Virus record (IMG/VR): IMGVR_UViG_3300017724_000004
Span: 1 to 51,312 of that record
DNA length: 51,312 nt
Source of the DNA: a virus
Strand: one strand, 5' to 3'
In this document: piece after piece, positions 18,740 to 51,010 of the stretch
How the letters are laid out: every line of letters begins with the position of its first letter
Position numbering within the stretch: the stretch's first letter is position 1
The notes under the pieces: generated by a model
What the model saw: only the letters and a program-made list of their open reading frames with translations
What the model was told of the DNA's origin: nothing
Databases searched by the model: none
Translations under genes and position numbers: made by a program

Positions 18740-18768
18740 TTGACATCTAACGAATCGCATGCTATAAA
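18740..18768 (+). promoter_or_regulatory. Host sigma70-type promoter for the plus-strand three-gene cassette
   Basis: Plus strand: TTGACA (18740-18745), a 17-bp spacer, TATAAA (18763-18768), 30 bp upstream of the ATG at 18798. It excludes the earlier in-frame ATG at 18771 as start because that would lie at or before the transcription start. Confidence 0.75.
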
Positions 18769-34503: not shown

Positions 34504-35064
34504 TTATTCCCTATAAAGATACAGATCTACAGGTACGCAGATCCTCAGTTGTGAGTAGTATGGGTTGACGTGGTGGTAGGTGAAACTAGGAAATATCATA
34601 AAATCTCCTGTCTCAGGTGTGTGATGATGCCTGTTAAACATAGGATTAAAGTATTCGTCATATCCTCTGTTAGCATTAGATCTAGGATCGTGCATCACAA
34701 TGTCACCACCTGAGTTTTTATCCTCTGCTAGTATATAGAAGACTCCTGATAGATGTGCTCCTGTGTGGTTGTGAATAGTCATAGAGTAGTCTTTACCATG
34801 ACCAGTGATCCAAGCTTTCATCTCACAGTGATTCCAATCATCAATCGAACAATCTATAGTAGCCTTTAGATAATCATCAAAAGCCACAAACACTTGATTT
34901 GAAAACTTAGTCATTACTATAGAATCATCATCTAAGATATTATATCCCCCCAAATCACTAGGTGGATTGTTTAGATCGTATGTACTAAATATGTGTTCTA
35001 CCAGACCAGTGGTGTCGAACTTACCTTGACCCACTTGTGTAGGCCATAGATTATGGATATCCAT
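34504..35064 (-). CDS. 2OG-Fe(II) oxygenase (PF13759-type)
   Basis: A 186-residue double-stranded beta-helix oxygenase common in marine T4-like phages: MTIHNHTGAHLSGVFYIL (His residues 98, 100, 104), GGDIVMHDPR, FPSFTYHHVNPY with the distal His, and an Arg in LRICVPVDL for 2OG. Members hydroxylate unknown protein or small-molecule substrates. It is 3 nt from the lysyl-hydroxylase fusion gene and probably transcribed with it. It may add a second hydroxylation activity (for example prolyl) to the fibres; substrate unknown. A TATATATA box at 35092-35099 could be a weak late promoter. Confidence 0.85.
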   Translation of the reverse strand: MDIHNLWPTQVGQGKFDTTGLVEHIFSTYDLNNPPSDLGGYNILDDDSIVMTKFSNQVFVAFDDYLKATIDCSIDDWNHCEMKAWITGHGKDYSMTIHNHTGAHLSGVFYILAEDKNSGGDIVMHDPRSNANRGYDEYFNPMFNRHHHTPETGDFMIFPSFTYHHVNPYYSQLRICVPVDLYLYRE

Positions 35065-35171: not shown

Positions 35172-35339
35172 ATGGTTAAACTAGGCAACATTGCTTCATT
35201 CACGAATATTGATGGAACTACTGTAACAGGTATTATCGAAAAAGTCAATGGTAAAAAGGTTACTATACGTGAACATGGCGTTGGAAATTGGGTTGTTACT
35301 GCTAATATGCTAACGTTCCTAAATATAGGTGGAGAATGA
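35172..35339 (+). CDS. Small 55-residue beta-rich protein, first gene of radical SAM operon
   Basis: MVKLGNIASFTNIDGTTVTG... ending NIGGE; the alternation of G-T-V-T-G, KKVTIRE and NWVVTAN suggests a small SH3/KOW-like beta barrel. It overlaps the next gene by 4 nt (ATGA). An A/G-rich stretch (GAAAGAGAGAATCAAC) precedes the ATG. Family not recognised. Confidence 0.65.
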   Translation: MVKLGNIASFTNIDGTTVTGIIEKVNGKKVTIREHGVGNWVVTANMLTFLNIGGE

Positions 35340-35800
35340 CATTTGAAGAATTCTTTGACTTCTTAATGAGCGAAGAATGTTTTAATAAGTGTGCTGTTTC
35401 CTTTATCAACAATAAGGGGGAACAGCAATACATTGAACATGACAATATATTTGCATATCAAGGTAAAGTTGTAGATCTTTGGTTTAGTGGTGATGATACC
35501 ATTAAGGTAGAGAACTATGAACGTATTCAACCCTATGATGGGACTATTCATATATTTTATGCGCCTGTTGACGCACCTTCCTTTCCTGTACATACAGATC
35601 CTATAGATATATACATCGAATGTCTTGACGGATGTAAGATAATGGAAATTGATGATAGGTATGTTATGATAGAGAAGGGATCTAAGATCTTTATTCCTGC
35701 AGAAACACCCCACATTGCATTGAACTCAGAGAAGGCTCTAACACTAAGCTATGGCGTTAACGACACAGAAACACTCAGTTATTTACGTAAAGACTACTGA
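35336..35800 (+). CDS. Cupin / JmjC-like putative Fe(II) oxygenase
   Basis: A 154-residue protein whose C-terminal half reads FPVHTDPIDIYIECLDGCKIMEI, then IEKGSKIFIPAETPHIALN and ALTLSYGV. H86-x-D88 and H126 form the facial triad seen in JmjC/ribosomal-oxygenase-type 2OG-Fe(II) enzymes. The N-terminal half is unique. It lies between the small beta protein and the first radical SAM gene, overlapping the latter by 50 nt. It could hydroxylate a peptide or simply bind metal or ligand. Medium confidence in fold, low in activity. Confidence 0.6.
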   Translation: MTFEEFFDFLMSEECFNKCAVSFINNKGEQQYIEHDNIFAYQGKVVDLWFSGDDTIKVENYERIQPYDGTIHIFYAPVDAPSFPVHTDPIDIYIECLDGCKIMEIDDRYVMIEKGSKIFIPAETPHIALNSEKALTLSYGVNDTETLSYLRKDY

Positions 35801-36782
35801 AACATGTAATCTGAACTGTTCGCATTGCTTTACATCTGGAATGAATGGTAGGAAGATCTACTTCGACCATGTGAAGACTGCGAATTGGTGTAATCAACTC
35901 GACACTGGAGATAACTTAATTCACCTTGAATATCATGGTGGAGAACCTATGCTTGCACCCATGGCAAACCTACGTGAGTTTCATGATATCACAAAGGCGC
36001 AATGGGGTGATAGAGCAACACATGGTATTACAACAAATCTTGTATTCAAACTAACCGAAGAAAGATTAAAGTTCTTTAGTGAAGTTATTACAGGTGGTAA
36101 TATAGGCACATCATGGGATCCTAATATTCGTTTTAGTAACGAACATCAGAGAAAGATGTGGGAGAATAATGTTAAACATCTAACAGGACTTGGTCATCGT
36201 GTCAAGTGCTTTATATCTGTATCTAAAGATGTTATAAAGTTACAACCAATTGAGATTGCTGATTACATGGAGTCTCTTGGTGTTGCTGAGATATCGTATG
36301 AGAGATTGACGCATGATGGTAATGCCACTATTAATACAGATATCTTTCCTCACAACAAAGAACTAGATGCTTGGTGGATGTTAATGCATGAACAAACTCA
36401 ATATCATAATGTTGTGAATGGATTTATGGAAACTGTTTACGAGAAGTTTAGTAAAGGTCAGTTTAGAGCAGGAACATTCTGTCGTGATTGTGAACAGAAG
36501 ATACACACCATCAACGCAGATGGTACTGTAGCAGGTTGTCCTAATACTGCACCGACCATGCATTATGGTAATATAGATACACCAGCAAAGGAAGTGCGAT
36601 TAAGTCCTAAACGTATGGAGATCATATCATGTGAACAGCATGAACGTGATGAACGGTGTTATAAATGCCCTGTCTTCATGTACTGCCATTCAGACTGTCA
36701 TCAACTACAGTGGATGGATGATGTTTGCCCTGCCCCTAAAACTCTAATGCTAAAATTGGCGAAAGAAAAAGAATGGATCTAA
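35751..36782 (+). CDS. Radical SAM protein with SPASM-like C-terminal cluster motif (plus operon, 1)
   Basis: A 343-residue protein with the radical SAM motif CNLNCSHC (C19, C23, C26), GGEP (HLEYHGGEPML) and a C-terminal Cys-rich region: FCRDCEQKIHTINADGTVAGCP and CYKCPVFMYCHSDCHQLQWMDDVC. That matches SPASM/twitch auxiliary cluster-binding domains of peptide-modifying radical SAM enzymes (anSME, PqqE, sactisynthases). Substrate unknown. The ATG has no strong site and lies 50 nt inside the cupin gene. Confidence 0.85.
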   Translation: MALTTQKHSVIYVKTTETCNLNCSHCFTSGMNGRKIYFDHVKTANWCNQLDTGDNLIHLEYHGGEPMLAPMANLREFHDITKAQWGDRATHGITTNLVFKLTEERLKFFSEVITGGNIGTSWDPNIRFSNEHQRKMWENNVKHLTGLGHRVKCFISVSKDVIKLQPIEIADYMESLGVAEISYERLTHDGNATINTDIFPHNKELDAWWMLMHEQTQYHNVVNGFMETVYEKFSKGQFRAGTFCRDCEQKIHTINADGTVAGCPNTAPTMHYGNIDTPAKEVRLSPKRMEIISCEQHERDERCYKCPVFMYCHSDCHQLQWMDDVCPAPKTLMLKLAKEKEWI

Positions 36783-37810
36783 TTATTAAACCAACAGAAG
36801 CTTGTAACTTCAAGTGTACTTTCTGTTCTTCTACTGACATTGATCCTAATGAAGTTGGATTGTTGGATCTAGATTACGTCTATAAGTTTCTAAAGAGATA
36901 TCCTGATTGTAACACTATTATTGTTAACGGTGGAGATCCTCTTATGGTCAAGCCTGAGTGGTATCAAGAATTAATAGATCACTTAGACGAACATGACTAC
37001 CCTGCATCTATATCATTCACATCTAACCTTTGGCCTTTCTTAATGAGACCAGAGAAATGGTTACCTATATTTCAGAACAGAAGATTTGGTTGTGCTACAT
37101 CGTTTCAATATGGTGGTGGTAGATTAAAGGGAGACTATTCGGAGTTTACTGAGAAAGACTTTTGGATGGTATCTAACGCTATGCTTAAACACACAGGAGA
37201 ACGTCCTGACTTCATTGCTGTTATAACTGATGAGAATGAACACCTTGCTATCAAGAATGTTGAGTTAGCAAAAGAGATGGGTGTAGAGTGTAAGTTAAAT
37301 TATGCTATGGCATCTGGTGTGCAAGGCACTACATATCAATTGTCTAAAATCTATGAAACATATATTAAGATTTACGATATGGGTTTGGCTGAGTACGAAT
37401 ACAATACCAAGCAAATGATGAAACGACTTGGTGGATCTGCGACATCTTGTCCACAGAATAGATTGTGTGATACAGGAATTAGAGCTATGAACCCAGGTGG
37501 TGATTATTACTCTTGTGGTTCGTTTGGTGATGATATGGATTATCCTATTGATTTTGAAACAGAAATGAATGGAAAGATGCAAACACCACTTCAAGATGAT
37601 CCTAATATACAAACAATGAAGATGGCTTGCTACACGTGTCCTATGTTTGAGATATGTAATGGCTGTAAGAAGACTGTACGAGATATGAAGAGAGAGGGTA
37701 CAGTAGAATCTCATTGTAGACAGATGAAAACATTAGCACCTCGTATACTTGAGATCAATGGAATGAACCCTGATGGAGTGACAGCTTATGTCGATGAATC
37801 TATCAATTAA
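36773..37810 (+). CDS. Radical SAM protein with SPASM-like C-terminal cluster motif (plus operon, 2)
   Basis: A 345-residue protein: CNFKCTFC (C11, C15, C18) close to the N-terminus, VNGGDPL (GGE-like, with GGD), and a C-terminal cluster region ATSCPQNRLCDTG, SCGSF, CYTCPMFEICNGCKK ending with ESHC. The set of cysteines is as in SPASM proteins. It overlaps the previous gene by 10 nt and the next by 23 nt. Confidence 0.85.
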   Translation: MDLIIKPTEACNFKCTFCSSTDIDPNEVGLLDLDYVYKFLKRYPDCNTIIVNGGDPLMVKPEWYQELIDHLDEHDYPASISFTSNLWPFLMRPEKWLPIFQNRRFGCATSFQYGGGRLKGDYSEFTEKDFWMVSNAMLKHTGERPDFIAVITDENEHLAIKNVELAKEMGVECKLNYAMASGVQGTTYQLSKIYETYIKIYDMGLAEYEYNTKQMMKRLGGSATSCPQNRLCDTGIRAMNPGGDYYSCGSFGDDMDYPIDFETEMNGKMQTPLQDDPNIQTMKMACYTCPMFEICNGCKKTVRDMKREGTVESHCRQMKTLAPRILEINGMNPDGVTAYVDESIN

Positions 37811-38744
37811 TCCAACTTACTATTGCAACTTCTCTTGTGACTTTTGTTACTTGACAAAGCAACAGTTAAATGATAGACACAAAATAACACCAATGTGGTT
37901 ACAACATTCTATGGGTCAAATAACAGATCCTATAACTCATGTGGATCTATATGGTGGTGAGATAGGATTACTAACACCTGAGTATTACTATTCTATCAAA
38001 AATGTAATACGAAGATACTATGATGGAAACATCCATATCAATACAAACCTATCAGCATTCCCTGACTTCTTTCGTGATGATGACGTTACATTGTCTGTAT
38101 CATACGACTTTCATGCAAGAGAGAAGGAACAATTTGTCCTAAATAATATGATGAATGCCAATAAAGATCTGGCTGTTCTTATTCTTGCGTCACCAAAAGT
38201 ATTAGAAATGGATGTGGAGTTTATGATCTTCACCCTTAATATGGTGTCTAATGTAAAGTCTGTGGAAATCAAACCATACTCTATTAACCAAGCAAATTCA
38301 TTTGACGTTACCCATAAAGACTTCGAAGAGTTTGTTATTAGATTTGATGAAGCTACTACACCTAAGAATTTTGACTTTCAGAATATTCATAACATCTACA
38401 GGAGTATAGATAAAGAGTATAACGCATTCTCAAACGATCATGTGTATATTACACCATCTGGTAAGTTTGGGGTATTGGAGTTTGATAATAATGATAAAGA
38501 GTATTTTAAAGAATATCAAAGCTATCATGAGTATAAGCAGTGGGCAAAAAATGAGGCACGAGATAATCTTAGTCCTATATGTCACGGCTGTACCTATTTT
38601 GGCAATTGTCTCACCGAACACTACAGGTATGTTCTGGACTTAGATAATGGATGTAATGGATATAAAGGATTACTAGACTACTATGCAGGAATGGAAAGCA
38701 CGACAACAGGCGTATCACATGACGCAGTCCCTCTTCAAAGATGA
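37788..38744 (+). CDS. Radical SAM protein (plus operon, 3)
   Basis: A 318-residue protein with CNFSCDFC (C13, C17, C20) and DLYGGEIG (GGE motif). C-terminal cysteines CHGCTYFGNC and GCNGY suggest an auxiliary cluster. The site GGAGTG lies 7-8 nt before the ATG. The protein is more divergent than its neighbours. Substrate unknown. Confidence 0.82.
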   Translation: MSMNLSINPTYYCNFSCDFCYLTKQQLNDRHKITPMWLQHSMGQITDPITHVDLYGGEIGLLTPEYYYSIKNVIRRYYDGNIHINTNLSAFPDFFRDDDVTLSVSYDFHAREKEQFVLNNMMNANKDLAVLILASPKVLEMDVEFMIFTLNMVSNVKSVEIKPYSINQANSFDVTHKDFEEFVIRFDEATTPKNFDFQNIHNIYRSIDKEYNAFSNDHVYITPSGKFGVLEFDNNDKEYFKEYQSYHEYKQWAKNEARDNLSPICHGCTYFGNCLTEHYRYVLDLDNGCNGYKGLLDYYAGMESTTTGVSHDAVPLQR

Positions 38745-39084
38745 TCTGAATGAGGTTGATATCAGGTGGGAACCTAACAATATAGCTGACTTTGCTCTCA
38801 TGCATTTTAGAGAATATGTAGATGAGTGGATTTATCCTGCTAAATCATACGTTGTCGCAATATGTTATGCCACATGGATTAGTCAAGACTTTAATGAACA
38901 TTTCTATGATGTTTTAAATGATAAGGATCTGCTATTTGGTAATGATCCACACTTCCTTCCTTATTTCAAAAGCAAAGAGATATACGATGATATCTTAGGT
39001 CAACTAGACTTTGATATGGAGCTAGGTATGGTTCCAGACATATATCAATATTATAAAGAGGAAATGTTGATTGGACAACTTTGA
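38683..39084 (+). CDS. Hypothetical protein between radical SAM genes (plus operon)
   Basis: A 133-residue soluble, acidic and aromatic-rich protein (MQEWKARQQAYHMTQSLF; YVDEWIYPAKSYVVAICYATWISQDF; QYYKEEMLIGQL). No family recognised. It overlaps the preceding radical SAM gene by 62 nt and the next by 14 nt. The position suggests an accessory or substrate-binding role in the same pathway. Confidence 0.65.
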   Translation: MQEWKARQQAYHMTQSLFKDDLNEVDIRWEPNNIADFALMHFREYVDEWIYPAKSYVVAICYATWISQDFNEHFYDVLNDKDLLFGNDPHFLPYFKSKEIYDDILGQLDFDMELGMVPDIYQYYKEEMLIGQL

Positions 39085-40153
39085 CTTCACCAAGCAACTA
39101 CTGGAAGATAAGCGTCCAGACATAGCCGAGATTGAGTTGACACTATTTGAGAACTGTCACCTTAACTGTTCTTTTTGTCACCATGATAAGAAGTCTACAG
39201 TAGGCTTGTCTCGTGAAGAGATCTTCTCCAAACTAGACTTGGTTGAACAACATGTCATCAAAATGAAAGGCCGAGTAGACGTTATCCAGATCAACATGGT
39301 TGGTGGAGAATTGTTTCAAGATCGAATATCAGAATGGGCTTATCCTGTATACTACGATTTCCTTGTAGAGATCAAGAAGATATTTGATACACATGGTGCG
39401 GAGATTAAAGTAGTTTGGGTTACTTCATTTCAGTTTAGTAAAAGAGATAGAGTGCAAAAGTTACTTGATGATCTAAACGCAGTAGATATACCATCTTATA
39501 TTATATGCTCTTATGACTTCGATGGAAGACCTGTAAAAGGACCTTATGGTAAGAACATAGAGCACTTTGCCGACTATATTACATCTATTAACATGGTTGC
39601 TACCACTATTTCTATTAAGAAGTTTATGGCAGATGATGATGAATACTTTCATTATCTGTATGAGAAGTTTGATAACTTCTACTTTGATGATTACATACCT
39701 GATCGTGGGTATGATTATATGATACCATCGGATAGCGAATACCTTGAGTTCTTAAAGTTTGTATATCATAACTACCCTGACATTAATCCTATTAAAGATC
39801 TTATATACCAAGAGAGCAATCATATGCATTGCTTGGCTCTTAACAAGGTTACAATCTTTCCTGATAACTCTACATCAAACTGTAGATGGGATAGATATGA
39901 TCAACGTGACTTCAACACAAAGTATGAGCGCAAAGATAATGCTGGGATGATGCAAGCATATATGGATGAGAATGGCTGTCTATCGTGTAAGTGGTGGAAT
40001 AAATGTGGATTTAGGTGCTACACACAATGGGACTGGAAGAATCGTGAAAGAGATCTACCTGATTGTATTATGCGTATGTGGTTTAACTACATGGATAAGA
40101 CTGGTCAGAACTTAATCACTGGTTTTGATTATATGGAAACAAACACTCAGTAA
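39071..40153 (+). CDS. Radical SAM protein with C-terminal cysteine cluster (plus operon, 4)
   Basis: A 360-residue protein starting at a TTG codon (GAGGAAATGTTGA upstream). It has CHLNCSFC (C29, C33, C36), NMVGGELF (GGE) and C-terminal MHCLAL, SNCRWD, GCLSCKWWNKCGFRCYTQWDW and PDC, a SPASM-like arrangement. It ends in a 38-nt tail-to-tail overlap with the minus-strand radical SAM cassette. Confidence 0.83.
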   Translation: MDNFDFTKQLLEDKRPDIAEIELTLFENCHLNCSFCHHDKKSTVGLSREEIFSKLDLVEQHVIKMKGRVDVIQINMVGGELFQDRISEWAYPVYYDFLVEIKKIFDTHGAEIKVVWVTSFQFSKRDRVQKLLDDLNAVDIPSYIICSYDFDGRPVKGPYGKNIEHFADYITSINMVATTISIKKFMADDDEYFHYLYEKFDNFYFDDYIPDRGYDYMIPSDSEYLEFLKFVYHNYPDINPIKDLIYQESNHMHCLALNKVTIFPDNSTSNCRWDRYDQRDFNTKYERKDNAGMMQAYMDENGCLSCKWWNKCGFRCYTQWDWKNRERDLPDCIMRMWFNYMDKTGQNLITGFDYMETNTQ

Positions 40154-41138
40154 TAGAATGGTGTTCCATGTAGGACTGTACACCTTTATCGATACAAGTC
40201 ATCATCTTGGCACATCCGTCACAACTATCTGTCTTGGATGTGTACATCATCTGGGTTAGGAAACTGTCATTCTTAGCCTTTAGCCAAGAGTCTATGTTCT
40301 CTTCATCCTTAACCTTAAACTGATCTGTACCTATCTTGACGATATCATATACAAATGGTGTCCAAAAGAAGTTACCATTACAATATGTGTAGTTGAGTTC
40401 TAAAGATCCACCTTGTGCCTGATCGATGATAGTAGAAGGAAAGTTGTCTTCTGCCCAATCATCTAGCTTCTTCCACTTGTTGATTAGATGTTTATGTACC
40501 TTGCTCTTCTCAGTTCTTAAAAATGATGGATTGAGTGTTAAGATTGTATCGAACTGTTTATCTGCTATATCAGATAACTCAAGAACCCTTTCATTAAGGT
40601 CATCATCATTTCCCATATTAAGGACAATGTAGTAATTAAGATCGTCATCAAATAGATTTAACTTATCAATCATCTCCTCATATCCGTTAGGAAACTTCTT
40701 AGGATCTATTGCTATGTTCGCATCATACATAAATCCTTTTGTCTTAGGAATGCTATTCAACTCATTGATTACGTCTAAGTCAATGTTCTCAAGTGTGGTA
40801 ACAAACTGGATAGTAGTGACTTTACTTAACGCATCTCTGAAGTCTGGATCCTGTAATAGATCCATCACATTGTTATTACCAAATATGTCTGTGGGACCTA
40901 TGTTGATCGTAGATGATCTATAACCATTATCATTGAACAAGTCAATAGCATTGTTTAGTCTATCAAAGCTACCTATGTTTGTTCCTAGTTTGTTCACAAA
41001 ACAACCAACACATTTAAACTCACAACCTGACAACACTTCGGCATTAAAGATTACTTTGATTTCGTGTCCATCGTTAAATGACAAGTCAAAGTCTTTGTCT
41101 GCCTGTGCTTCACTTTTGTTATTAGTAACTATTCCCAT
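40116..41138 (-). CDS. Radical SAM protein of the GCF(V/I) paralogue family (minus operon, 5th)
   Basis: A 340-residue protein starting at 41138 (GAGGAATATC upstream; an earlier in-frame start at 41165 is less likely). Radical SAM motif CEFKCVGC (C39, C43, C46) followed by FV. It shares with its four paralogues: L-x-G-C-x-x-x-C-x-G-C-F, the segment INIGPTDIFG, a region PSFLRTEKSK, PFVYD near the C-terminus and final CDGCAKMMTC...C. It is the last gene of the minus cassette. Confidence 0.85.
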   Translation of the reverse strand: MGIVTNNKSEAQADKDFDLSFNDGHEIKVIFNAEVLSGCEFKCVGCFVNKLGTNIGSFDRLNNAIDLFNDNGYRSSTINIGPTDIFGNNNVMDLLQDPDFRDALSKVTTIQFVTTLENIDLDVINELNSIPKTKGFMYDANIAIDPKKFPNGYEEMIDKLNLFDDDLNYYIVLNMGNDDDLNERVLELSDIADKQFDTILTLNPSFLRTEKSKVHKHLINKWKKLDDWAEDNFPSTIIDQAQGGSLELNYTYCNGNFFWTPFVYDIVKIGTDQFKVKDEENIDSWLKAKNDSFLTQMMYTSKTDSCDGCAKMMTCIDKGVQSYMEHHSITECLFPYNQNQ

Positions 41139-42261
41139 GATATTCCTCGTTGTCAAATAGGGCAATAACTTCTTTATTTAAGATACACTCTGAACGTCCT
41201 TTAAACATCGTATCCATAACCTTTGGTATTAATCTATTGGAGCATACATTAAGGTACTTGCACGTACCACATTCTTTATCAAAACTATTCTTTAATTGCT
41301 CCGATACAACTTTATGTTTATAATCTAAGATAGCATCTAGTATAGGTCTATCTTGTACAATCTCAAAATCTGGTTTGTAAATTTGAGCATTCTCATAGAT
41401 GAATGGTGAAGCATATAGTTTTCCATGATGTATGTTTACTACTGCATAATGAAATGCTTTGTGAGATAGATCTCCTTGTAGGAAATGAAACTTGTTCTTA
41501 AAACGATTAACATCAGTAGATAGATTGGTAAGCATATCATTCCAAGCAAACAGTTTATCACCATGCTTAGTTGTATTGTTAAAAGATCGAACAACGGATG
41601 GTAAGATCTCAATGACTGTATTGTAGGTCTCTCGTATGTAATCGATAGCCTCGTACAATCTATCCTCTATACCATCAACAATATTGGTTGCCATTGATAT
41701 CTCAAAGTCCAGTGTACTGTCTTTAAAGTGGTTAACTCTGGTGTCCAACGCATTTCTATAAACTGGATCATCTAGTACTCTGTTAAGATCTAGTGCTATC
41801 TGCACATCCCATGACTTAACAACCTGTCCAAGAGGAGACTTTTCTATAGACTTAATCTTACCTAGAATATCATCTTCGCTCAAAGATCCCATAATAGAAC
41901 AGTTGTGTTGAATATTTCTACTGTCTTCTGGCATCATTAATATAGCACTAGCAAGCCTATGGTTCTTTATAATCTCATCTAAGTTTTCTGCTCCGTAGAA
42001 GTCTGTAGGTCCGATTACAATATCATCAAGAACTATATCGGAATTATCTTTTAATGCATATGCTAGATCATAAAATAGTTGTATAGACTTAGGGTGCCAG
42101 TTTCCACGTCTCTTAACAAAACATCCCGGACACATGTAAGAACAGCCCTCAAGTAGTTCTAGTGTTACTTGTATCTTATATTGTCCCATAGATGATACAG
42201 AAGTAAACTCTTCCCCCACGCCACCATGTTTGACGATATCTTCCCAACTACTATTTAACAT
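41122..42261 (-). CDS. Radical SAM protein of the GCF(V/I) paralogue family (minus operon, 4th)
   Basis: A 379-residue protein: CSYMCPGCFV (C40, C44, C47), VIGPTDFYGAENL, ILPSVVRSFN, SPFIYEN and C-terminal CGTCKYLNVCSNRL...C. It overlaps neighbours by 17 and 11 nt. The C-terminal C-x-x-C-x5-C...C probably binds an extra cluster. Target unknown. Confidence 0.87.
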   Translation of the reverse strand: MLNSSWEDIVKHGGVGEEFTSVSSMGQYKIQVTLELLEGCSYMCPGCFVKRRGNWHPKSIQLFYDLAYALKDNSDIVLDDIVIGPTDFYGAENLDEIIKNHRLASAILMMPEDSRNIQHNCSIMGSLSEDDILGKIKSIEKSPLGQVVKSWDVQIALDLNRVLDDPVYRNALDTRVNHFKDSTLDFEISMATNIVDGIEDRLYEAIDYIRETYNTVIEILPSVVRSFNNTTKHGDKLFAWNDMLTNLSTDVNRFKNKFHFLQGDLSHKAFHYAVVNIHHGKLYASPFIYENAQIYKPDFEIVQDRPILDAILDYKHKVVSEQLKNSFDKECGTCKYLNVCSNRLIPKVMDTMFKGRSECILNKEVIALFDNEEYHGNSY

Positions 42262-43414
42262 AAGATATAGCCTTTATTCTGTCTAGCTCTTTGTCACCGT
42301 CTTCAGTCACAAGGAACCTTTTACGATAACCATTCTTATCACCTTCTACAGTATATCCGTCCCATTTGTACATGGTTTGAGCAGGTGCGTTATAGTTATG
42401 TATATGTGCAAGCATATTCTTCTTGGGTGCAATACATCTATTAACCCCAAGGTAATCTCTAAGTAAGATAATCTTTCTATTGTAACAAGACATCAGCAAT
42501 GGACAAGTCTCACACTCTGTATTCTTTACTCTCTCAAGTTGACTTTCTAAAATAGGCAGTACTTCATCAAATGTATCTACTTTAAACATTTCATGGTACA
42601 ATGCCATGTTTTCGTACATAAACGGTGAAATGAACCATTCGCCCTTTTTGTAGTTTAACACAGTATAATTCATCCCACCATGTGAGTGGTCTACCATTAT
42701 GTTATTTAATTTTGTTTCTTTATAAGCACTTAGCTCATCAAAGAAGTCGTTAAACTTGTCTAATGTGTCAAGTATTAGCTTTGGTTTGTGTGATCGTGAA
42801 ACAGACGGTATAAAGTCTAATATCGTATTAAAGCGTTCTACTGCGCTTTTATGCAGTTTAACGTAATCTAGCCCATAATCACGTATGTTTACAACAAAGG
42901 TATATGTTACCTCGTGCTCAAGGTTCTCATCGATATACTGTAACATCTTATGAATATGATCGACATACTCTTTATCAAAGAACTTGTGTGGGTTTGTTGC
43001 AATCCCAATTTCAATCTCTGTGTCTGTGTTGATATTATTTGTTATGAAAGCAATCCACCTAGGAAGATCCCCATCTATCAACGTAGACACGAATGCAAGG
43101 ATAGGAGAGTTCTCGTTGATGATATCAATCAAAGAAGGCATGACCTCATAGAAGTTCTCTGATGCAAGGAAATCTGTCGGACCTATTAGGATTTCGTCAA
43201 CCAGAATACCTTTGTCTGTTATGTCTCGTATGAAGTTTTTGGCTTTATCTAACTGATGCTCGTCACTAGCATTACCTCTACGATGCACAAAGCAACCTGG
43301 GCATTTGTGATGACAACCATCTAAAACATCAAGCTGTATCTTTACTGCCGATACTGGCTTGGTCTGAGTTTCCGTGGTGAGTTCGTAGTATAGGTTGTTT
43401 TTAATTAGTGGCAT
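42251..43414 (-). CDS. Radical SAM protein of the GCF(V/I) paralogue family (minus operon, 3rd)
   Basis: A 387-residue protein: LDGCHHKCPGCFV (C34, C38, C41), ILIGPTDFLASENF, FIPSVSRSH, SPFMYEN and CETCPLLMSCYNRK...C. The C-terminal 45 residues (YKWDGYTVEGDKNGYRKRF...) extend beyond the paralogues. It overlaps its upstream neighbour by 14 nt and its downstream neighbour by 11 nt. Confidence 0.87.
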   Translation of the reverse strand: MPLIKNNLYYELTTETQTKPVSAVKIQLDVLDGCHHKCPGCFVHRRGNASDEHQLDKAKNFIRDITDKGILVDEILIGPTDFLASENFYEVMPSLIDIINENSPILAFVSTLIDGDLPRWIAFITNNINTDTEIEIGIATNPHKFFDKEYVDHIHKMLQYIDENLEHEVTYTFVVNIRDYGLDYVKLHKSAVERFNTILDFIPSVSRSHKPKLILDTLDKFNDFFDELSAYKETKLNNIMVDHSHGGMNYTVLNYKKGEWFISPFMYENMALYHEMFKVDTFDEVLPILESQLERVKNTECETCPLLMSCYNRKIILLRDYLGVNRCIAPKKNMLAHIHNYNAPAQTMYKWDGYTVEGDKNGYRKRFLVTEDGDKELDRIKAISYVK

Positions 43415-44432
43415 ACATATACTCTTTCAAGGCGACACATTGGTCTAGTTTCCTTGACTTCATATACATGTGTACGTTTCTTTCTGCACAACTGAGCATG
43501 TATTCGCAGTCAGAACAATCTTCAACTGTATTCGCATACTCTAGGTTTTGTGGCAACCACTCTTGGTCTATATCCGTCTCAAACTCAGGAGTTCTTTGTA
43601 TGATTGCATCATATAGGAATGGGTTAACATATAGTTTCCCATTATAAAAGCTGTAGTTCTGGCAACCATATCCATTAAACTTAGCATCAAAGAATGTGTA
43701 AAGATTACGCCATTCTGGATCAATATCTTGTTTACGTAGGTCTTCCCTAAACATATCAAGAAACTTATTAACCTTACCACGTGCGTTTCTGTCTGTCAAG
43801 AAGGAAGGTGTGATAACTACTGGTGCGTTGAAGTCTTCTTTAACCCTAGAACATAGTTCGTTATAAGATATCTTATCAAATAGATCTTCTGTGTAATTAA
43901 CTCTAAACTGAACAGATCCTATACTGAATAGTTTAATGTTCTCTAGGAAGTTAGGATCAAGATCATCATCAAGATACGCCTCTACATCCAATACAATCTT
44001 AAAATCAATATCTGGAATACGATTAATGTTTCTATAGATCTGCCAAATCATATCAAGTTTAGGCTTGACAATAGAAGGATCTTGTAGTAATGTAGATGTA
44101 AACCCAACACCAGATATGCTGTATAGATCTGTCATAGATGGATGTTGCATAACTTCATCGAAGTTTTGTGCATCAAATATATCTGTTGGACCTATAGTAA
44201 TTTCATCTGGATACATCTGACCCTTACACAAAAGATCATAAAGCTTTGTCATATGGTCTGGTGATGTTAGGTTTTTTCTAGGAATGAAGCATCCGGGGCA
44301 CATCTGATCACAACCATGAAGAATATCTAGGTTAATCTCTGTGCGTAGGAATTCTACATTGGTAGGACTTATACCATCAATATAGCTGTAATACCCTGCT
44401 TCTGTTGCATTAAGCTTCGTTATCATTGGCAA
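43401..44432 (-). CDS. Radical SAM protein of the GCF(V/I) paralogue family (minus operon, 2nd)
   Basis: A 343-residue protein: LHGCDQMCPGCFI (C41, C45, C48), ITIGPTDIFDAQNF, ITPSFLTDR, NPFLYD and CSDCEYMLSCAERN...C. It has the same layout as the other four minus-strand radical SAM proteins. Overlaps the upstream hypothetical gene by 23 nt. Confidence 0.87.
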   Translation of the reverse strand: MPMITKLNATEAGYYSYIDGISPTNVEFLRTEINLDILHGCDQMCPGCFIPRKNLTSPDHMTKLYDLLCKGQMYPDEITIGPTDIFDAQNFDEVMQHPSMTDLYSISGVGFTSTLLQDPSIVKPKLDMIWQIYRNINRIPDIDFKIVLDVEAYLDDDLDPNFLENIKLFSIGSVQFRVNYTEDLFDKISYNELCSRVKEDFNAPVVITPSFLTDRNARGKVNKFLDMFREDLRKQDIDPEWRNLYTFFDAKFNGYGCQNYSFYNGKLYVNPFLYDAIIQRTPEFETDIDQEWLPQNLEYANTVEDCSDCEYMLSCAERNVHMYMKSRKLDQCVALKEYMYATN

Positions 44433-45168
44433 ACAACATAAAATCTTCGGGGAAGAATGATACTATTTGATCCGTTATTTTAGCTTCGCACATAACGTTG
44501 TATAGATCTCTACCGAAGTATTTTGGTGAATCGTTATATATTTGTTTATTGTATTCTGTAGATAGCCCCCTCTTACTTACAATTAGTAGAAGTGCATCAT
44601 AGCCAGTTGTAAGAAGCCTAGCAATATTAGGACCGCACATAGCTGGCTTATCCACTACTTTGGTATCATCAAGTAATTGTTTAAGATTAACTTCTAATTC
44701 TTTTTGATCATCTGTGAGACCATCATAAAGTTTTGATAATGCAAAGGGAACAGAAGATGCAACTGTATCTATGAGGCTCTCGACCAATGCTGAATTCTCT
44801 TCAATAAACTTAAAGATTAACTTTGGTGGGAATATGTATAGCAACTGACTTTCTTGTTCACTAATATCGTGCTTATAATAAAACTTAATAATAAGAACAA
44901 CAATTCTAGCTAGTAACGGACAATCTACCATAAAGTCCGAATTGATGTAAGCCTTAATCAGATCCTCATCAATAGAAGAGAATGTTGTCTTAAAGTTGGT
45001 ATTAGCCAAATAAATGATAATATGTTGGGCTGATAGTTTCTCTTTGCTTTTAGCATAGTCAACCCAAAGGACATACTCTTCAAGTTCATTCTTATCTTTG
45101 TATATCTGTACTAGGTGCTGTGGAGATAGAGGTAACTCATAGCACGTACTTTCGTCTGGAATTGTCAT
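44410..45168 (-). CDS. Hypothetical protein within the radical SAM cassette (B)
   Basis: A 252-residue helical soluble protein beginning MTIPDESTCYELPLSPQHLV. I start at 45168 (TAAGGAACATTATATT upstream); the frame extends 26 codons further into the neighbour. It has helical stretches with PLLARIVVLIIKFYYKHD and a KPAMCGPNIARLL segment. No family recognised. Between radical SAM genes it may act in substrate handling. Confidence 0.7.
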   Translation of the reverse strand: MTIPDESTCYELPLSPQHLVQIYKDKNELEEYVLWVDYAKSKEKLSAQHIIIYLANTNFKTTFSSIDEDLIKAYINSDFMVDCPLLARIVVLIIKFYYKHDISEQESQLLYIFPPKLIFKFIEENSALVESLIDTVASSVPFALSKLYDGLTDDQKELEVNLKQLLDDTKVVDKPAMCGPNIARLLTTGYDALLLIVSKRGLSTEYNKQIYNDSPKYFGRDLYNVMCEAKITDQIVSFFPEDFMLFANDNEA

Positions 45169-45181: not shown

Positions 45182-46285
45182 TTATAGTGGATACTTATGG
45201 ATAAGATATGGGATACGGTTTTGTCTCTTAGAGAAGAACTGAACATCCGTATTGATCAGTTTAAGATCGGCAGTCAGATTATCCATATCAAAATCGTTTT
45301 GTAATACTTTTCGTACAATAGGAAATACATTCTTAAACTCTGTATAGAGATCCATATATTCCCAACCGTCTGCATCACTGTCTGCTTTATCTTGGTGTGC
45401 GGCAATGAATGCAGTATCTGCTTTGACTAGGTTCCATAGCTCTTCTAGTTTATAGAATGCGGCAGTATAGTTACCTGCATTTGCTTTAGTAATATAACAG
45501 TCCCTAACCCACTCTGTCTTATTTGTGGCATATTCTGCATTACGTGCTGTATTGGCATTCATCCAATCAATTACTGAAAGGATATATGCCAAGTAGTGCC
45601 GCCTTGATGTAAAGTGTTCCATCACATCTTGAGCCATTGTAGACTGATGTACTGTAAACTTTTCTTTAATAAGTAGCTGTACTGCATTAGTTCTGTGGTA
45701 ATCGTTTAACCAAAATAAAAGATCATAACTAAAGTTCTTACCATTCTGATAGATCACTGTATAAGGAGTTACTCCGCCACCACCTGAGTCTGTGGAGAAT
45801 AGTGTGTCTACATGATTTGATACGTCATTAATAGTCTCGTCAGCAAGAACCATAGTAAGCATAGCATCCATAGAGAAAATCTTCTCAAGGAATTGTCCAA
45901 CCATACTTGTAACGTTAGTACTTGAATCATAGAAGCCAGATGCAGTAATAAGTCCAGATGTATATCTTGCAAACACTTTAATCATATCTTCACAAGTAGA
46001 AAATAGAACAATACGTTTATCACTATTCTGAATGAAATCAACATCATCAACTTCATCGAAAGTCATATAAGATATTAGATCGTTAGCATTATTTCTAACA
46101 GTATTAGCAATAGATTCATACTGAGCCGCCAACAACTGTGCACCATTTGATGGATGCACGAGAACGATGTTACGTGGGGTTGACGTGTGATAATACGAGT
46201 TTAACTCACCAACTACAGTGTCTAAGTTTTCAAGAGTTGAGATATACTTACTATTGTTTAAGTAGTATAGATTTTGACCTATCAT
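45182..46285 (-). CDS. Hypothetical protein within the radical SAM cassette (A)
   Basis: A 367-residue soluble protein. N-terminal part is alpha/beta-like (NIVLVHPSNGAQLLA, KRIVLFSTCEDMIKVF), middle has a glycine stretch FSTDSGGGGVTPYTVI, and the C-terminal half is helical and Trp/Asn-rich. Not recognised. It lies 2 nt after the first radical SAM gene of this operon. No cysteine cluster. It may bind the peptide or form a scaffold. Confidence 0.7.
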   Translation of the reverse strand: MIGQNLYYLNNSKYISTLENLDTVVGELNSYYHTSTPRNIVLVHPSNGAQLLAAQYESIANTVRNNANDLISYMTFDEVDDVDFIQNSDKRIVLFSTCEDMIKVFARYTSGLITASGFYDSSTNVTSMVGQFLEKIFSMDAMLTMVLADETINDVSNHVDTLFSTDSGGGGVTPYTVIYQNGKNFSYDLLFWLNDYHRTNAVQLLIKEKFTVHQSTMAQDVMEHFTSRRHYLAYILSVIDWMNANTARNAEYATNKTEWVRDCYITKANAGNYTAAFYKLEELWNLVKADTAFIAAHQDKADSDADGWEYMDLYTEFKNVFPIVRKVLQNDFDMDNLTADLKLINTDVQFFSKRQNRIPYLIHKYPL

Positions 46286-46287: not shown

Positions 46288-47466
46288 TTACGCTCCGTCT
46301 TTCATTTTATATTGAGTTGCATCATCATTCCAAGTAAAGTCGAATGGATTATAATACTTCAATGTTTCTTTTGGTAATACACATCCATCTATGTTTAAGC
46401 TTTCTTGTGCTTCGAATACTAATCTGTTAGCACATGCGACAGCAAACTTACAATCTGAGCAGTCCTTTACCTTACTAGACCTATTTATACCTTTTGTAAT
46501 CAATTCGTTCTTACGTTGTAAGATTTCCTCAAAAGATAATCCTGTTACATCTAGGTTCTTATTAGATAAGAAAAATGCCTGTTCATGCAACATAACATTC
46601 AAATGCGTAGTAGGTCCGTTCTCTCCTGGTACGATAGTGATACCCACAAAGTTGATTGAGTTACAATAAAGGTTAGCCATTGACATAACGGCCTCTTTAC
46701 GGTTATCTTCATCAATAACTGATTCTAGGAACCTATTCCAAGCAAACAAGTTATTACGTTGGATAATCTGATTAGGTGCTCTTGCAAATGCTGGGTTCAT
46801 CTCCATGATGGTTCCAAAATCATTTACAGAACGATCAATCAGTCTATTGTATTTCTCTTTGTCGATCTGTTTACCAACAACATTAGAAGCTTGTAAAGTC
46901 CAAGACCAGTCCATCATCTTTGGAGTTTCGTTCTTAAAGAACTCTATCTTCTCCATAACTCTATTATAGTAATCGTCATCATCCAACATCTCGTTAATAC
47001 GACCAATCGGCATAATGAATTCGATAACCATTTCACGTCTATATGCATCTAGATCGTCTAGAATAGCAAAGATCTCTCTGACCTTTTCCATTGACGCATT
47101 GTCAAACTTAGCAGGAGAGGCAATACGTGCATTAGTGTGTTCTCTCATTATAGCTTGAACTGTTGGATTTGTCAAGATATCTTTTGTATTTTTAGCAGAG
47201 AATAGGTCTGTAGGACCGATAACAAACTCTCTTAGGTTGCCACCTACACGTTTAACGCCATCAGCAAGTTCCTTAGCACGATCAATAATTGCTTGATTGA
47301 CTTCTGGATCAATTGCTTTATCAACAAAACAGCCAAGGCAACCCTGTTCACACCCAGAGAGAACTTCCATCTGAATAAGAACATCGAACTTTGTTGCATC
47401 AGATGGTGCCAGACTTTCAGGTCCTGAGTATCTCATCTGCTTACAATATGATTGTTGCATTGTCAT
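46288..47466 (-). CDS. Radical SAM protein of the GCF(V/I) paralogue family (minus operon, 1st; adjacent to CHxS proteins)
   Basis: A 392-residue protein: VLSGCEQGCLGCFV (C39, C43, C46), FVIGPTDLFSAKN, MNPAFARAPN and CSDCKFAVACANRL...C. I start at 47466, one base after the stop of the upstream CHxS gene; the open frame continues 31 codons inside it, where GAGGAAGACG also gives a site. Direct adjacency to the two CHxS proteins makes it the best candidate for a maturase acting on them. That is inference. Confidence 0.87.
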   Translation of the reverse strand: MTMQQSYCKQMRYSGPESLAPSDATKFDVLIQMEVLSGCEQGCLGCFVDKAIDPEVNQAIIDRAKELADGVKRVGGNLREFVIGPTDLFSAKNTKDILTNPTVQAIMREHTNARIASPAKFDNASMEKVREIFAILDDLDAYRREMVIEFIMPIGRINEMLDDDDYYNRVMEKIEFFKNETPKMMDWSWTLQASNVVGKQIDKEKYNRLIDRSVNDFGTIMEMNPAFARAPNQIIQRNNLFAWNRFLESVIDEDNRKEAVMSMANLYCNSINFVGITIVPGENGPTTHLNVMLHEQAFFLSNKNLDVTGLSFEEILQRKNELITKGINRSSKVKDCSDCKFAVACANRLVFEAQESLNIDGCVLPKETLKYYNPFDFTWNDDATQYKMKDGA

Positions 47467-47467: not shown

Positions 47468-47854
47468 TTAACGTCTTCCTCTTGATGTATGACAGCTGGT
47501 GTGACAGCTTGAGTGGCATAATACTGCGGAGATAGATCTATTAGTAATTCTACCTTCAATGAGGTCTACGGTTCTTCTTACTCCGTCCTCTAATGTGTCA
47601 ACGATGTCTTGCGAATATGCTCTTGAGCCTGCGGATATGCCACCATCAATATAGTTATCAAATAGAGAGTTAGCCGCTCCTGTATATTCAAACCTATGTG
47701 TCGTAGTATTACTACCTGTTCCACCCATAGCAGTGGGATTGTTATTCTGATATGCTGTAGTTGTTATAGTAATAGTTTTGTCAAACGTTCTTAACTTACC
47801 ACCTGCATAAGTTTGCATGTAACTATCTATACTATCTCTGGTTAAATTACCCAT
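47468..47854 (-). CDS. CHxS-tail protein B, candidate modified-peptide precursor
   Basis: A 128-residue protein. The body has LRTFDKTITITTTAY, RFEYTGAANSL, SQDIVDTLEDGVRRTVDLIE and RITNRSISAV, then the tail LCHSSCHTSCHTSRGRR. The tail consists of C-H-x-S repeats and carries all of its cysteines. Protein A has the same tail with synonymous codons. Such a long conserved leader and short Cys-rich end suits a ribosomally made, post-translationally modified peptide precursor. It is 1 nt upstream of a radical SAM gene and couples with protein A by TAATG. It could also be a metal-binding virion part. Confidence 0.8.
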   Translation of the reverse strand: MGNLTRDSIDSYMQTYAGGKLRTFDKTITITTTAYQNNNPTAMGGTGSNTTTHRFEYTGAANSLFDNYIDGGISAGSRAYSQDIVDTLEDGVRRTVDLIEGRITNRSISAVLCHSSCHTSCHTSRGRR

Positions 47855-48240
47855 TATCTACGACCTCTTGATGTGTGACAACTAGTATGACAAGAGCTAT
47901 GACATAGTAAAGCTGAAATGGATCTGTTAGTGATACGAGATTCAATCTGATCTACTGTTCTTTGCATAACACTATTAATAGAGTCAATAACATCTTGACT
48001 GTACATACGATTCCCTGTGTATATCCCAGAATCTAAATAGTTATTGTATAGCGAGTTAGCCGCTCCTGTGTACTCAAAGCGTTGATTAAAGCCACTTGAG
48101 CTTGTAGGTCCCGCTTGAGTTTGTGACACTGTTTGCAACACATATGCAGTGACAGTAAACGTCATCGTTTTATCAAAAGTCCTTAACTGTGCTCCAGCTT
48201 GACTTTGCAAACTACTATTATTTTGTGCATAGGTTGGCAT
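47854..48240 (-). CDS. CHxS-tail protein A, candidate modified-peptide precursor
   Basis: A 128-residue paralogue of protein B: LRTFDKTMTFTVTAY, RFEYTGAANSLYNNYLDSGI, MYSQDVIDSINSVMQRTVDQIE and RITNRSISAL, then LCHSSCHTSCHTSRGRR. The N-terminal 25 residues and loops differ, but the centre and end are shared. Its start shares a base with the fibre stop and its stop with the start of protein B, so the four genes fibre, A, B and radical SAM are translationally linked. Confidence 0.8.
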   Translation of the reverse strand: MPTYAQNNSSLQSQAGAQLRTFDKTMTFTVTAYVLQTVSQTQAGPTSSSGFNQRFEYTGAANSLYNNYLDSGIYTGNRMYSQDVIDSINSVMQRTVDQIESRITNRSISALLCHSSCHTSCHTSRGRR

Positions 48241-49307
48241 TAAACTTTAACCTCGACTACCCCTTCACCATCTTCTAATGCTACACCAACATAATATAAG
48301 AAGTGTATTTCAGAAGCACGTTCAATTGGAACTGCTTTACATTTACCGTCATTATCTGCTACTATATAGTCACCCTTTTTAACAGTTCCGTTAACCTTAC
48401 ATGGGATACGTCCCTTAAGAGCAATGAAAGGCCATAAAGGATCTTCTTTATTATCTTCGTTAACATTCATTCTAACGCCTGGAAGTGTAGAGATAACACC
48501 TGCAATAGCCATACCTTTTTGGTATAGAGTTACCTCATTATCGCCACCAATAGCCAAAAGATCTCCATGCTCATATCCTCTATCAGCTAAATATTTCTCC
48601 GCCAAATCCGACCAGTTTGCAGACGTAGCCGTACCTTGGTAGGTACCTGAGTTATCAACATACGATACATCGGAGCCATTTCTTCTAAACTGAACAATTC
48701 TGTTTGAAGATTGGTCTGCAACAATGTACCATCTATTTGAGTGATATTGGATTTTACCTTTTGTACCTGGATCACCTGTCCAGTTAGATGAGGCATTAGA
48801 GAAAAGACCACCGTTAGTGATATCAAGAGATCCGCCTCCAAAGGCACCTATCTCACCCTTTTGTCCCTTAGATCCTGTGCTACCTGTCGATCCAGTGCTA
48901 CCAGTACTACCAGTTGCACCAATCTCACCCTTTTGACCTTTGGCACCAGTGCTACCAGTTTGTCCTTTTTGACCTTTTTGTCCTTTGGCACCAGTTGAAC
49001 CAGTGCTACCAGTATTACCTGTGCTACCAGTATTACCAGTATTACCAATCTCACCTTTTTGTCCTTTGGCACCAGTTGAACCAGTATTACCAGTATTACC
49101 AGTCTGTCCCTTTTGACCTTTTTGACCTACTTCGCCTTTTTGACCCTTTTGACCCTTCTCACCTTTTTGACCTTTTACGCCTTGAGGAGCATCCGCAAAG
49201 GTAGTAGCTCTCCACACACCTTTTGCACTTTCAAATGTCCATGTGACGTTGTTAGCGGTGTGGGTTGCGCCATTTGCTGGCGATGATGGGAAATTAATTG
49301 CCGCCAT
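48240..49307 (-). CDS. Collagen-like tail fibre protein with peptidase-G2-like C-terminus
   Basis: A 355-residue fibre. N-terminal INFPSSPANGATHTANNVTWTFE matches phage fibre attachment segments. Residues 43-157 are 38 Gly-X-Y triplets, of which 16 by my count are Gly-X-Lys (for example GQKGEKGQKGQKGEV); most others are G-S-T, G-N-T or G-A-T. The C-terminal region after about 220 has ANWSDLAEKYLADRGYEHGDLLAIGG and IALKGRIPCKVNGTVKKGDY, resembling the peptidase-G2-like chaperone domain of phage fibres. It would trimerise. Lysines are in the register used by collagen lysyl hydroxylases. Confidence 0.85.
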   Translation of the reverse strand: MAAINFPSSPANGATHTANNVTWTFESAKGVWRATTFADAPQGVKGQKGEKGQKGQKGEVGQKGQKGQTGNTGNTGSTGAKGQKGEIGNTGNTGSTGNTGSTGSTGAKGQKGQKGQTGSTGAKGQKGEIGATGSTGSTGSTGSTGSKGQKGEIGAFGGGSLDITNGGLFSNASSNWTGDPGTKGKIQYHSNRWYIVADQSSNRIVQFRRNGSDVSYVDNSGTYQGTATSANWSDLAEKYLADRGYEHGDLLAIGGDNEVTLYQKGMAIAGVISTLPGVRMNVNEDNKEDPLWPFIALKGRIPCKVNGTVKKGDYIVADNDGKCKAVPIERASEIHFLYYVGVALEDGEGVVEVKV

Positions 49308-49309: not shown

Positions 49310-51010
49310 TTATGCGCCTCCTGCGCCGTATATAGTTTTGAGTGCGGTACCTGCTGAGTTGTACACCACAAAGGATACGACAGATTTCAATTCATTTGAT
49401 CCGACAGCATCATCGGCAAGCTTAACTTGGGTTACGGAATTAGATGCTAAATGAATGGCATCTATAGAACCATCAACATAGTGTTGAGAGTCAACAGAGT
49501 TATCAGCCATTTTAGCCGCAGTGACTGCGTTAGAAGCAAGTTTAGCCGTGGAAATAGCACCGTCAGAAACAACCGAATTATTAAATTGTACCCATTGACT
49601 AGAAGTCCCATCGTTATAGTAAATATATAAGGATCCTGTCTCATCATCCCACCACAGGTCACCGTCTACCGCACTACCTGGTGCTGTGGTGCTTGTAATG
49701 GCTTCGTTGCCTTCTCCCTTTTGACCTTGAGGACCTGTATCGCCTTTAGTACCAGCCGAACCAGTTCCACCTGTGGCTCCAACTTCACCTTTTTGACCTT
49801 TGATACCAGCGGCACCAGAACCAGATTCACCAATCTCACCTTTTTGACCCTTTTGACCCTTTTGGCCTTTAGCACCGTTTGTCCCATTATTACCAGTTGC
49901 ACCAATCTCACCTTTTTGACCTTTAGCACCTGCGGCTCCAACTTCACCTTTTTGGCCTTTTTCACCTTTTTGACCTTTGGCACCAACTTCGCCCTTTTGA
50001 CCTTTAGCACCTGCGTCTCCATCAGAACCAATTGTACCAGCTTGGCCTTTTTGTCCCTTATCGCCTGCTAAAGCGGCATTAGTAATAGTGTGCTTTTCCC
50101 ATGTACCTGCTGAGGCATCGTATACTGGTATAAGGTCTGCACCATCAGCATCTGTACCTGTTGCAAATGATGTTAAAGCAGATCCAACATTACCTGCATC
50201 AGTAACATCAGCATTTGCTTCAATATTATCAAGCTTTGACCCATCTGAGGATACGTCTCTACCGTCAACAGTACCTGTTACAGTGATGTTTCTAATGCCA
50301 GAAATGTCACTACTATCATCTTTCGAGATAAGCGTACCAGATGTCGGTAAAGTAAGTGCAGTTGTTCCGCTTGTAGTAAGTGTCGTTGTGTGTGCACCTG
50401 ATGTCGTAAACGAGCCACCAAATGATAGGTTGCCCAATGCACTTAATGTTCTATTGGCATTACCAACATCAAAGGTTAGTGTTCTATCAGCACTTGCATT
50501 TACAGAACTGTTAGCGGCAAATAGTAGTTCATATGAAGCAACAGTAGTATCTCTAAGAGAGAATGTACTAATATCTGTAATAGATCCACCAATTGCACCG
50601 ATACCAGTGATACTTGGTGATGTAAGTGTTTTGTTAGTAAATGTTTCTGTACCTGTCAAGGATGCAAAGGAATTACCACCACTAAGAGCGGCGTTCCACT
50701 GACCAATAGTACCAGTCAGTGTATTGTTTGATAGGTTAATAGTTTTGTTAGTAAGAGTTTGTGTTCCACTTAATGTAGCCGCATATGCCGAGTCTAGTCT
50801 TAGTAAGACATCAGCATCATTGGTTCCAGAGTTTAGAACTGTGATACCTGCATCAGTTCCCTTACCACCAATGGTTCCTACAAAGTCACCCATAGTGCCT
50901 GAGTCCATGGCAATGTTAGTGTCTCTGATAATGGCAGTAACAGCCGCAGAGTCAACAAGTGCCTGTAAACCTAGACTAATATTTAGATGATCACTTAGTT
51001 TTACAACCAT
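49310..51010 (-). CDS. Collagen-like tail fibre protein with GTxTLTNKT repeats
   Basis: A 566-residue fibre. Residues 1-310 form a beta-rich shaft with repeats such as GTQTLTNKTI and GTETFTNKTL, typical of marine phage fibres. Residues about 316-434 are Gly-X-Y triplets rich in G-Q-K, G-A-K and G-E-K. Residues 440-566 hold DGDLWWDDETGSLYIYYNDGTS and repeats with the pattern A-I-S-T-A-K-L-A-S-N-A-V-T. It is 2 nt upstream of the other collagen-like gene. Likely trimeric and host-contacting. Confidence 0.85.
   Translation of the reverse strand: MVVKLSDHLNISLGLQALVDSAAVTAIIRDTNIAMDSGTMGDFVGTIGGKGTDAGITVLNSGTNDADVLLRLDSAYAATLSGTQTLTNKTINLSNNTLTGTIGQWNAALSGGNSFASLTGTETFTNKTLTSPSITGIGAIGGSITDISTFSLRDTTVASYELLFAANSSVNASADRTLTFDVGNANRTLSALGNLSFGGSFTTSGAHTTTLTTSGTTALTLPTSGTLISKDDSSDISGIRNITVTGTVDGRDVSSDGSKLDNIEANADVTDAGNVGSALTSFATGTDADGADLIPVYDASAGTWEKHTITNAALAGDKGQKGQAGTIGSDGDAGAKGQKGEVGAKGQKGEKGQKGEVGAAGAKGQKGEIGATGNNGTNGAKGQKGQKGQKGEIGESGSGAAGIKGQKGEVGATGGTGSAGTKGDTGPQGQKGEGNEAITSTTAPGSAVDGDLWWDDETGSLYIYYNDGTSSQWVQFNNSVVSDGAISTAKLASNAVTAAKMADNSVDSQHYVDGSIDAIHLASNSVTQVKLADDAVGSNELKSVVSFVVYNSAGTALKTIYGAGGA

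Follow-up and report, generated by a model that had tools for sequence, protein, structure and literature searches.

A CHxS-repeat protein tail linked to radical SAM gene cassettes in phages, probably a modified tip of the host-contact apparatus

The window analysed here, the whole of a 51,312-base IMG/VR virus record in which T4-like structural and replication genes can be recognized by reading, encodes two adjacent paralogous proteins (T1 and T2, together T) that share a conserved 16-residue C-terminal tail consisting of three CHxS repeats followed by RGRR. The tail is tightly linked to radical SAM (rSAM) genes, which lie with it in a recurrent cassette that is itself linked to tail-fibre genes. 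The rSAM surroundings and the position behind a tail-fibre gene suggest that the tail is probably the chemically modified tip of the phage host-contact apparatus. We consider it likely that the tail is a substrate of the rSAM enzymes, that it is retained on T, and that it is displayed on the virion by means of the fibre. The features of the window are given below.

48240..49307, minus strand: collagen-like tail fibre ending in a conserved domain F, directly upstream of T2 (PF01391, 1.4e-18; PHROG tail-fibre families; F profile)
47854..48240, minus strand: T2, tail protein, 128 aa, C-terminal CHSSCHTSCHTSRGRR (ORF, 43-sequence alignment, AF2 model)
47468..47854, minus strand: T1, paralogous tail protein, 128 aa, C-terminal CHSSCHTSCHTSRGRR as in T2 (ORF, codon comparison)
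46288..47466, minus strand: GCF-type rSAM of class E (conserved CX3CX2C and C-terminal Cys; start 1 nt beyond the T1 stop)
45182..46285, minus strand: companion Y, about 360 aa, function unassigned (conserved across cassettes)
44410..45168, minus strand: companion X, about 250 aa, function unassigned (conserved beside T; AF2 model)
43401..44432, minus strand: rSAM class E (CX3CX2C/Cys alignment, class profile)
42251..43414, minus strand: rSAM class E (Pfam Radical_SAM 2.4e-5, below cut-off)
41122..42261, minus strand: rSAM class E (CX3CX2C/Cys alignment, class profile)
40116..41165, minus strand: rSAM class E (CX3CX2C by reading; seed of profile E)
39071..40153, plus strand: rSAM class D (Radical_SAM match, profile D)
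38683..39084, plus strand: companion Z, 133 aa, MQEWKxR... (profile Z)
37788..38744, plus strand: rSAM class C (Radical_SAM match)
36773..37810, plus strand: rSAM class B (Radical_SAM over cut-off; relatives in cultured phages)
35751..36782, plus strand: rSAM class A with SPASM domain (PF13186, 22.6 over 21.5 bits; TIGR04085 in 19/19 relatives)
35336..35800, plus strand: cupin-like protein (JmjC_2 and cupin matches, weak in the window, clear in relatives)
34504..35064, minus strand: 2OG-Fe(II) oxygenase-like protein (PF13759, 4.3e-14)

As the preliminary description had stated, all 16 tail residues of T1 and T2 are identical while 11 of the 16 codons (17 nt) differ, 100% of them synonymously, and the rest of the proteins has diverged far more, the bodies being 48% identical when the tail is excluded. 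The codon pattern for CHxxCHxxCHxxRG occurs twice in the window and not once in 100 dinucleotide-preserving shuffles. The T1/T2 pair was also found in 36 other loci, some of them representing overlapping parts of a single contig; body identity there is 32-56%, and 13-16 of the 16 tail residues agree. The synonymous codon differences, and the recurrence of the pair in diverged viruses, rule out a recent duplication as the source of the identical tails and support the earlier claim that the tail is preserved by selection at the protein level.

Viral contigs scanned with the codon-degenerate pattern for CHxxCHxxCHxxRG gave at least 119 stretches, and the same scan of prokaryotes (one genome per species, 84,980 species) gave 71. 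At least 193 ORFs in at least 154 viral and bacterial loci end exactly in the tail, which is common to well over 100 viral contigs and a few bacteria. Since the C, the H and most of the R-G were preset by the search pattern, their invariance is not independent evidence. In the 153 distinct T proteins listed, the fourth residue of repeats 1, 2 and 3 is Ser in 136, 119 and 136, respectively, and every protein ends in R, preceded by R or W. A T-body profile built without the tail and run on loci picked mainly by rSAM B had 25 matches, all 25 of which carry the tail. One locus (L078:560-1141(+)) encodes a longer variant with five CHxx repeats that ends in GSSGGW and not in RGRR (CHTNCHSSCHSSCHSSCHGSSGGW), in a slice with rSAM A and companion X. 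Among bacteria, the RGRR tail occurs together with rSAM genes in Bdellovibrio/Bacteriovorax-like genomes (L143, L152, L171, L194, L197, L202, L205 and L210), where it is sporadic, being present in 3 of 66 genomes of one family. A cellular variant, CHG[AN]CHG[AN]CHG[SA]RGWR, was found in Pseudomonas, Oceanospirillaceae, Thalassospira and Methylococcales (L186, L167, L184, L198, L155 and L145), with the form CHGACHGACHG[SA]RGWR in Pseudomonas, Thalassospira and their relatives. This variant is carried by 3 of 299 Pseudomonas-genus genomes; the CHG-type proteins have export-signal-like N-termini and are accompanied by 3-5 rSAM genes and, in some cases, prepilin-like neighbours.

The co-occurrence of the tail with rSAM genes, which had been proposed as a check, was searched for across these loci. 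At least one rSAM gene of five classes was present in the fetched slice of 148 of the 154 tail loci listed and in 0 of 16 control loci in which the motif is present but not C-terminal (Fisher p=7e-18, the loci not all being independent). Database loci are redundant, and cluster counts are therefore given as well: when T was clustered at 90% identity, the linkage held in 109 of the 112 clusters listed. As for the six loci without an rSAM gene in the slice, L110, L116 and L120 still carry companion X or Y, and the contigs of L041, L043 and L084 show rSAM genes in other slices. A tail common in places without rSAM neighbours, which would have spoken against the initial proposal, was therefore not encountered. 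When rSAM A or B was used as bait in viral contigs, mostly window-like loci with T about 10 kb off were recovered, which makes this a weak test of the reverse linkage. It could be argued that the rSAM enzymes serve metabolism or some other purpose, their genes being no more than neighbours of T, and a metabolic role was indeed suggested by the authors of the Campylobacter phage CP220 study for the many rSAMs of that phage (PMC2853527). Against this, the linkage persists in bacteria and among viruses that differ in gene order and backbone, and T bodies of unrelated sequence retain the identical tail type next to the same rSAM classes, so that co-location only seems very unlikely.

The preliminary description had coupled T to a single adjacent rSAM gene. 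The adjacency stands, as ORF 46288-47466 starts 1 nt past the T1 stop, but the single gene does not, as the cassette holds nine rSAM genes plus companions. Nine ORFs of the window, four on the plus strand (35751-40153) and five on the minus strand (40116-44432, 46288-47466), have the CX3CX2C motif that, in a radical SAM domain, defines the superfamily. Five of the nine match PF04055 (Radical_SAM) at E <1e-4; the class E (GCF-type) enzymes are divergent and mostly fall under the Pfam cut-off, and four aligned members of this class, including 46288-47466, have in common CX3CX2C and four C-terminal Cys. Iterated profiles gave a recurrent cassette order of cupin, rSAM A, T, X, Y, D, B, C and Z, with 2OG-Fe oxygenases scattered through it and class E rSAMs in some lineages. 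The genes are tightly packed (A to T median gap 1 nt, and -1 for both T to X and T to T). Window-like viruses have T, T, E, Y, X, E, E, E, E in this order on one strand and D, Z, C, B, A on the opposite one; there class A is not next to T and class E adjoins it, which counts against the reading of T as the rSAM substrate. A scan of the window for promoters and terminators gave fewer promoters than the shuffled expectation and terminators within about 1.4 sd of it.

The SPASM auxiliary-cluster domain, known from rSAM/SPASM peptide or protein maturases, could be established for rSAM A only. Most of the named families closest to this enzyme mature peptides or proteins, but its scores stay far from their equivalog cut-offs; its closest solved structures include the anaerobic sulfatase-maturating enzyme and, weakly, YydG; no cut-off of a named maturase family was reached by the window rSAMs. 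Companion X gave a high-confidence predicted fold (pLDDT 91.5) with no PDB fold match, companion Y had no PDB sequence match, and neither companion belongs to a recurring Pfam family. A further window gene specifies an A-type Fe-S carrier of the IscA/SufA family (18339-18746, minus strand; PF01521 E=8e-17; PDB matches HI1723, SufA and IscA), which would suit a genome with nine Fe-S rSAM enzymes to load.

No function could be assigned to T by Pfam, NCBIfam, PHROGs, PDB-sequence or Foldseek searches, the sole relation found being phrog_35144, a PHROG without assigned function. The CXXCH haem motif of c-type cytochromes does not fit the tail, where the spacing is C-x3-C-H in 153 of 153 distinct T proteins. 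An AlphaFold2 model built with 43 sequences (mean pLDDT 80) has a helix at 4-19, strands at 22-35 and 43-57, a long helix at 81-102 and then a low-confidence tail; it gave no credible Foldseek match in BFVD or PDB. The prediction for T is thus a small folded domain that bears a flexible tail. A predicted folded N-terminal part, a tail at the extreme C-terminus and a location that is usually a tail-fibre operon point to a modified structural protein and not to a leader plus a released core, and the earlier reading of T as a leader-and-core RiPP precursor is not supported. On that reading the tail would be cut off and act as a free small peptide, for instance a signal or a toxin directed at competing cells, and the body of T would be its leader. 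A short Cys/His/Ser-rich C-terminus by rSAM/SPASM genes is the usual RiPP layout, and a protease might cut at the terminal RGRR, yet a non-exhaustive search revealed no recurring protease or exporter among the cassette profiles, the body is predicted to be folded and the operon begins with a fibre gene. We therefore find a freed peptide quite unlikely.

The link between the tail and the fibre was seen in many loci. A fibre-like protein with a C-terminal domain F lies upstream of the cassette in 82 of the 154 tail loci listed, usually with a gap of 0-43 nt. These fibres, collagen-like in the window, measure about 100 to 2,824 aa within the slices, some being incomplete, and match PHROG tail-fibre families. 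In 39 loci there was too little upstream sequence to judge, and in 33, including most bacterial ones and the phages FLC6 and DT01, domain F is absent, which counts against display of the tail on a fibre of this kind; in DT01 that upstream position is occupied by another virion or tail protein. The window has two collagen-like GQKG fibres (48240-49307(-) and 49310-51010(-)), and the ORF at 32566-34500(-), which adjoins the 2OG-Fe oxygenase at 34504-35064(-), encodes a collagen glycosyltransferase of the PLOD type (PF25342, 9e-44) that also has a GT25 domain. Judging from these genes, the fibres of the window virus may undergo lysine hydroxylation and glycosylation of the collagen kind, and the oxygenase may act either for T or for the collagen-like fibres.

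Cultured phages also carry the tail. Neither T2 nor a 28-aa tail query gave a tblastn match in cultured phages, though tails occur there, because the T bodies are too diverged and short repeats are unsuited to such a search; the tails were located by DNA pattern and rSAM queries instead. The window rSAM B matched exactly seven phage records at 54-62% identity, namely Sinorhizobium phage Phosso, Agrobacterium phage Atu_ph07 (two records), Burkholderia phages FLC6, FLC8 and S13, and Pseudomonas phage DT01. In FLC6 (T being gp72), DT01 (QTH80265), Atu_ph07 and Phosso the tail itself was seen in the sequence, and FLC6 T has a full-length match in FLC8 and S13; in these cultured-phage records T is annotated as a hypothetical protein. 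In FLC6, the match of gp75 (L138:12001-13068(+)) to the window GCF-type rSAM begins about 160 nt 5' of the annotated start, so that the absence of the rSAM cluster motif from the annotated gene is probably due to nothing more than a wrongly placed start. The published virion proteome of Atu_ph07 (PMC6102473) places structural clusters at CDS 31-76, 170-215 and 284-329, a numbering that agrees with the RefSeq record at gp181 (baseplate wedge), gp198 (portal) and gp204 (prohead core). The T protein of this phage is gp170, whose gene opens the virion-protein cluster CDS 170-215, and T itself is presumably among the virion proteins detected.

Taken together, T would be made and fold by its N-terminal domain, as the structural model supports, and would offer its tail to the enzymes, several neighbouring rSAMs acting in turn on the three CHxS repeats. 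The cupin and the 2OG-Fe oxygenases might assist, although they could have other substrates. The modified tail would stay attached to T, which would assemble with the fibre encoded upstream and sit on the virion near the fibre tip, where the tail, chemically hardened, would form the tip used to bind or enter the host. The genomic surroundings suggest that the rSAMs modify T.

As for the chemistry, we tentatively propose, with more doubt than confidence, a C-C cross-link from each His to the beta carbon two residues on, giving three-residue cyclophanes, with the Cys separately modified or holding metal. Two positions after each His, the residue is confined to Ser, Asn, Ala, Gln and Arg, with Gly at 0 of 459 such positions versus 88 Gly at the middle position, as expected if a beta carbon is needed for the cross-link, although plain purifying selection could also account for it. 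The resulting H-x-[SNAQR], present in all repeats of the 153 distinct proteins listed, is compatible with an aromatic-x-acceptor motif with a beta carbon at i+2 but is not diagnostic of it, and thioethers at Cys are an alternative to H-x-S cyclophanes. The three C-H pairs might instead hold metal, as an ion or a cluster, at the tip of a fibre or spike, the rSAMs acting elsewhere. Cys and His are standard metal ligands, and 104 of the 153 distinct T proteins listed have no Cys outside the tail; such a role would leave unexplained the rSAM linkage, the 1-nt gaps to rSAM A and the conserved Ser/Asn/Ala position, and we consider it unlikely as the sole function, though a tail that is both modified and metal-binding may also be envisaged.

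A second class of Cys-rich repeats was found in similar surroundings. Domain F fibres without the CHxS cassette can precede a repeat protein of the form (CPCNCN[FD])n and an rSAM/SPASM gene, and a heptad scan returned 57 viral stretches, with rSAM genes in 43 of the 57 slices and a Peptidase_S74 fibre chaperone domain in 5 of 9 heptad proteins tested. Proteins with (CxCNCN[YF])n heptads were noted at L408:5876-6511(+), L409:4407-4946(+) and L417-L473. Heptads are also carried by CPT_0180 (L416:5164-6768(+)) of Campylobacter phage CP220, whose genome has 11 rSAM proteins, and CPT_0180 is a candidate substrate of the Campylobacter phage rSAMs. It is quite possible, if a little short of an even chance, that a large group of phages build a covalently cross-linked or otherwise rSAM-modified peptide tip on the virion by a dedicated multi-rSAM line, which would harden a C-terminal repeat tail borne by the tail fibre, with at least two chemically different tail types (CHxS tetrads and CxCNCN[YF] heptads) and cellular CHxS versions in Bdellovibrio-like bacteria and some Pseudomonas.

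Peptides modified by rSAMs are known from bacteria. In the open-access literature, we found no phage cassette of up to nine rSAMs serving a virion-linked protein. If the proposal is correct, post-translational natural-product chemistry would be part of viral cell contact or breach, a new class of virion modification in which many enzyme variants serve one simple repeat, and the function-less annotated rSAMs of FLC6, S13, DT01 and perhaps the Campylobacter phages would gain a substrate.

Like the Hxs system (HxsA-D, NCBIfam), which as far as the open-access literature showed is also known from computation only, T has His-x-Ser repeats in a small protein linked to at least two rSAM enzymes. T differs from it in having a Cys in each repeat, a C-terminal RGRR, a viral setting and different rSAMs, whose best scores against HxsB (TIGR03978) and HxsC (TIGR03977) were tens of bits with cut-offs of 370 and 267.9, so that the suggested kinship does not extend to membership of the HxsB/HxsC system. 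The Cys at every fourth residue recalls the CXXX-repeat rSAM targets (TIGR04115, TIGR04117). The window T proteins did not match this system, rSAM A reached 21 bits versus a cut-off of 350 (TIGR04115), and a Thalassospira relative (L155) matched TIGR04117 weakly, at 22 bits versus 50; at the curated cut-offs of both families membership was rejected. In triceptides the enzyme links an aromatic residue with the beta carbon at i+2, the acceptor being Arg, Asn, Asp or Ser (PMC11002830), and reference 108 of that article mentions His-containing motifs in its title. Like the triceptides made by the SPASM rSAMs XncB, OscB, MscB, HaaB and YhhB, the tail has an aromatic residue followed by an i+2 acceptor, and rSAM A has a SPASM domain, though its scores against known cyclophane families lie far below the cut-offs (YhhB 24.6 vs 445, FxsB 19.4 vs 370). 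Unlike triceptides, T has a Cys in every repeat and is predicted to be a folded, virion-linked carrier, on which a cross-link is our proposal. The virulent T4-like Campylobacter phages CP220 and CPt10 have 11-12 rSAM proteins (PMC2853527) and thus resemble the window virus in possessing many rSAMs without a known substrate; unlike the window, they have no CHxS tail near the rSAM examined, and in its place there is a (CTCDCNY)n repeat protein.
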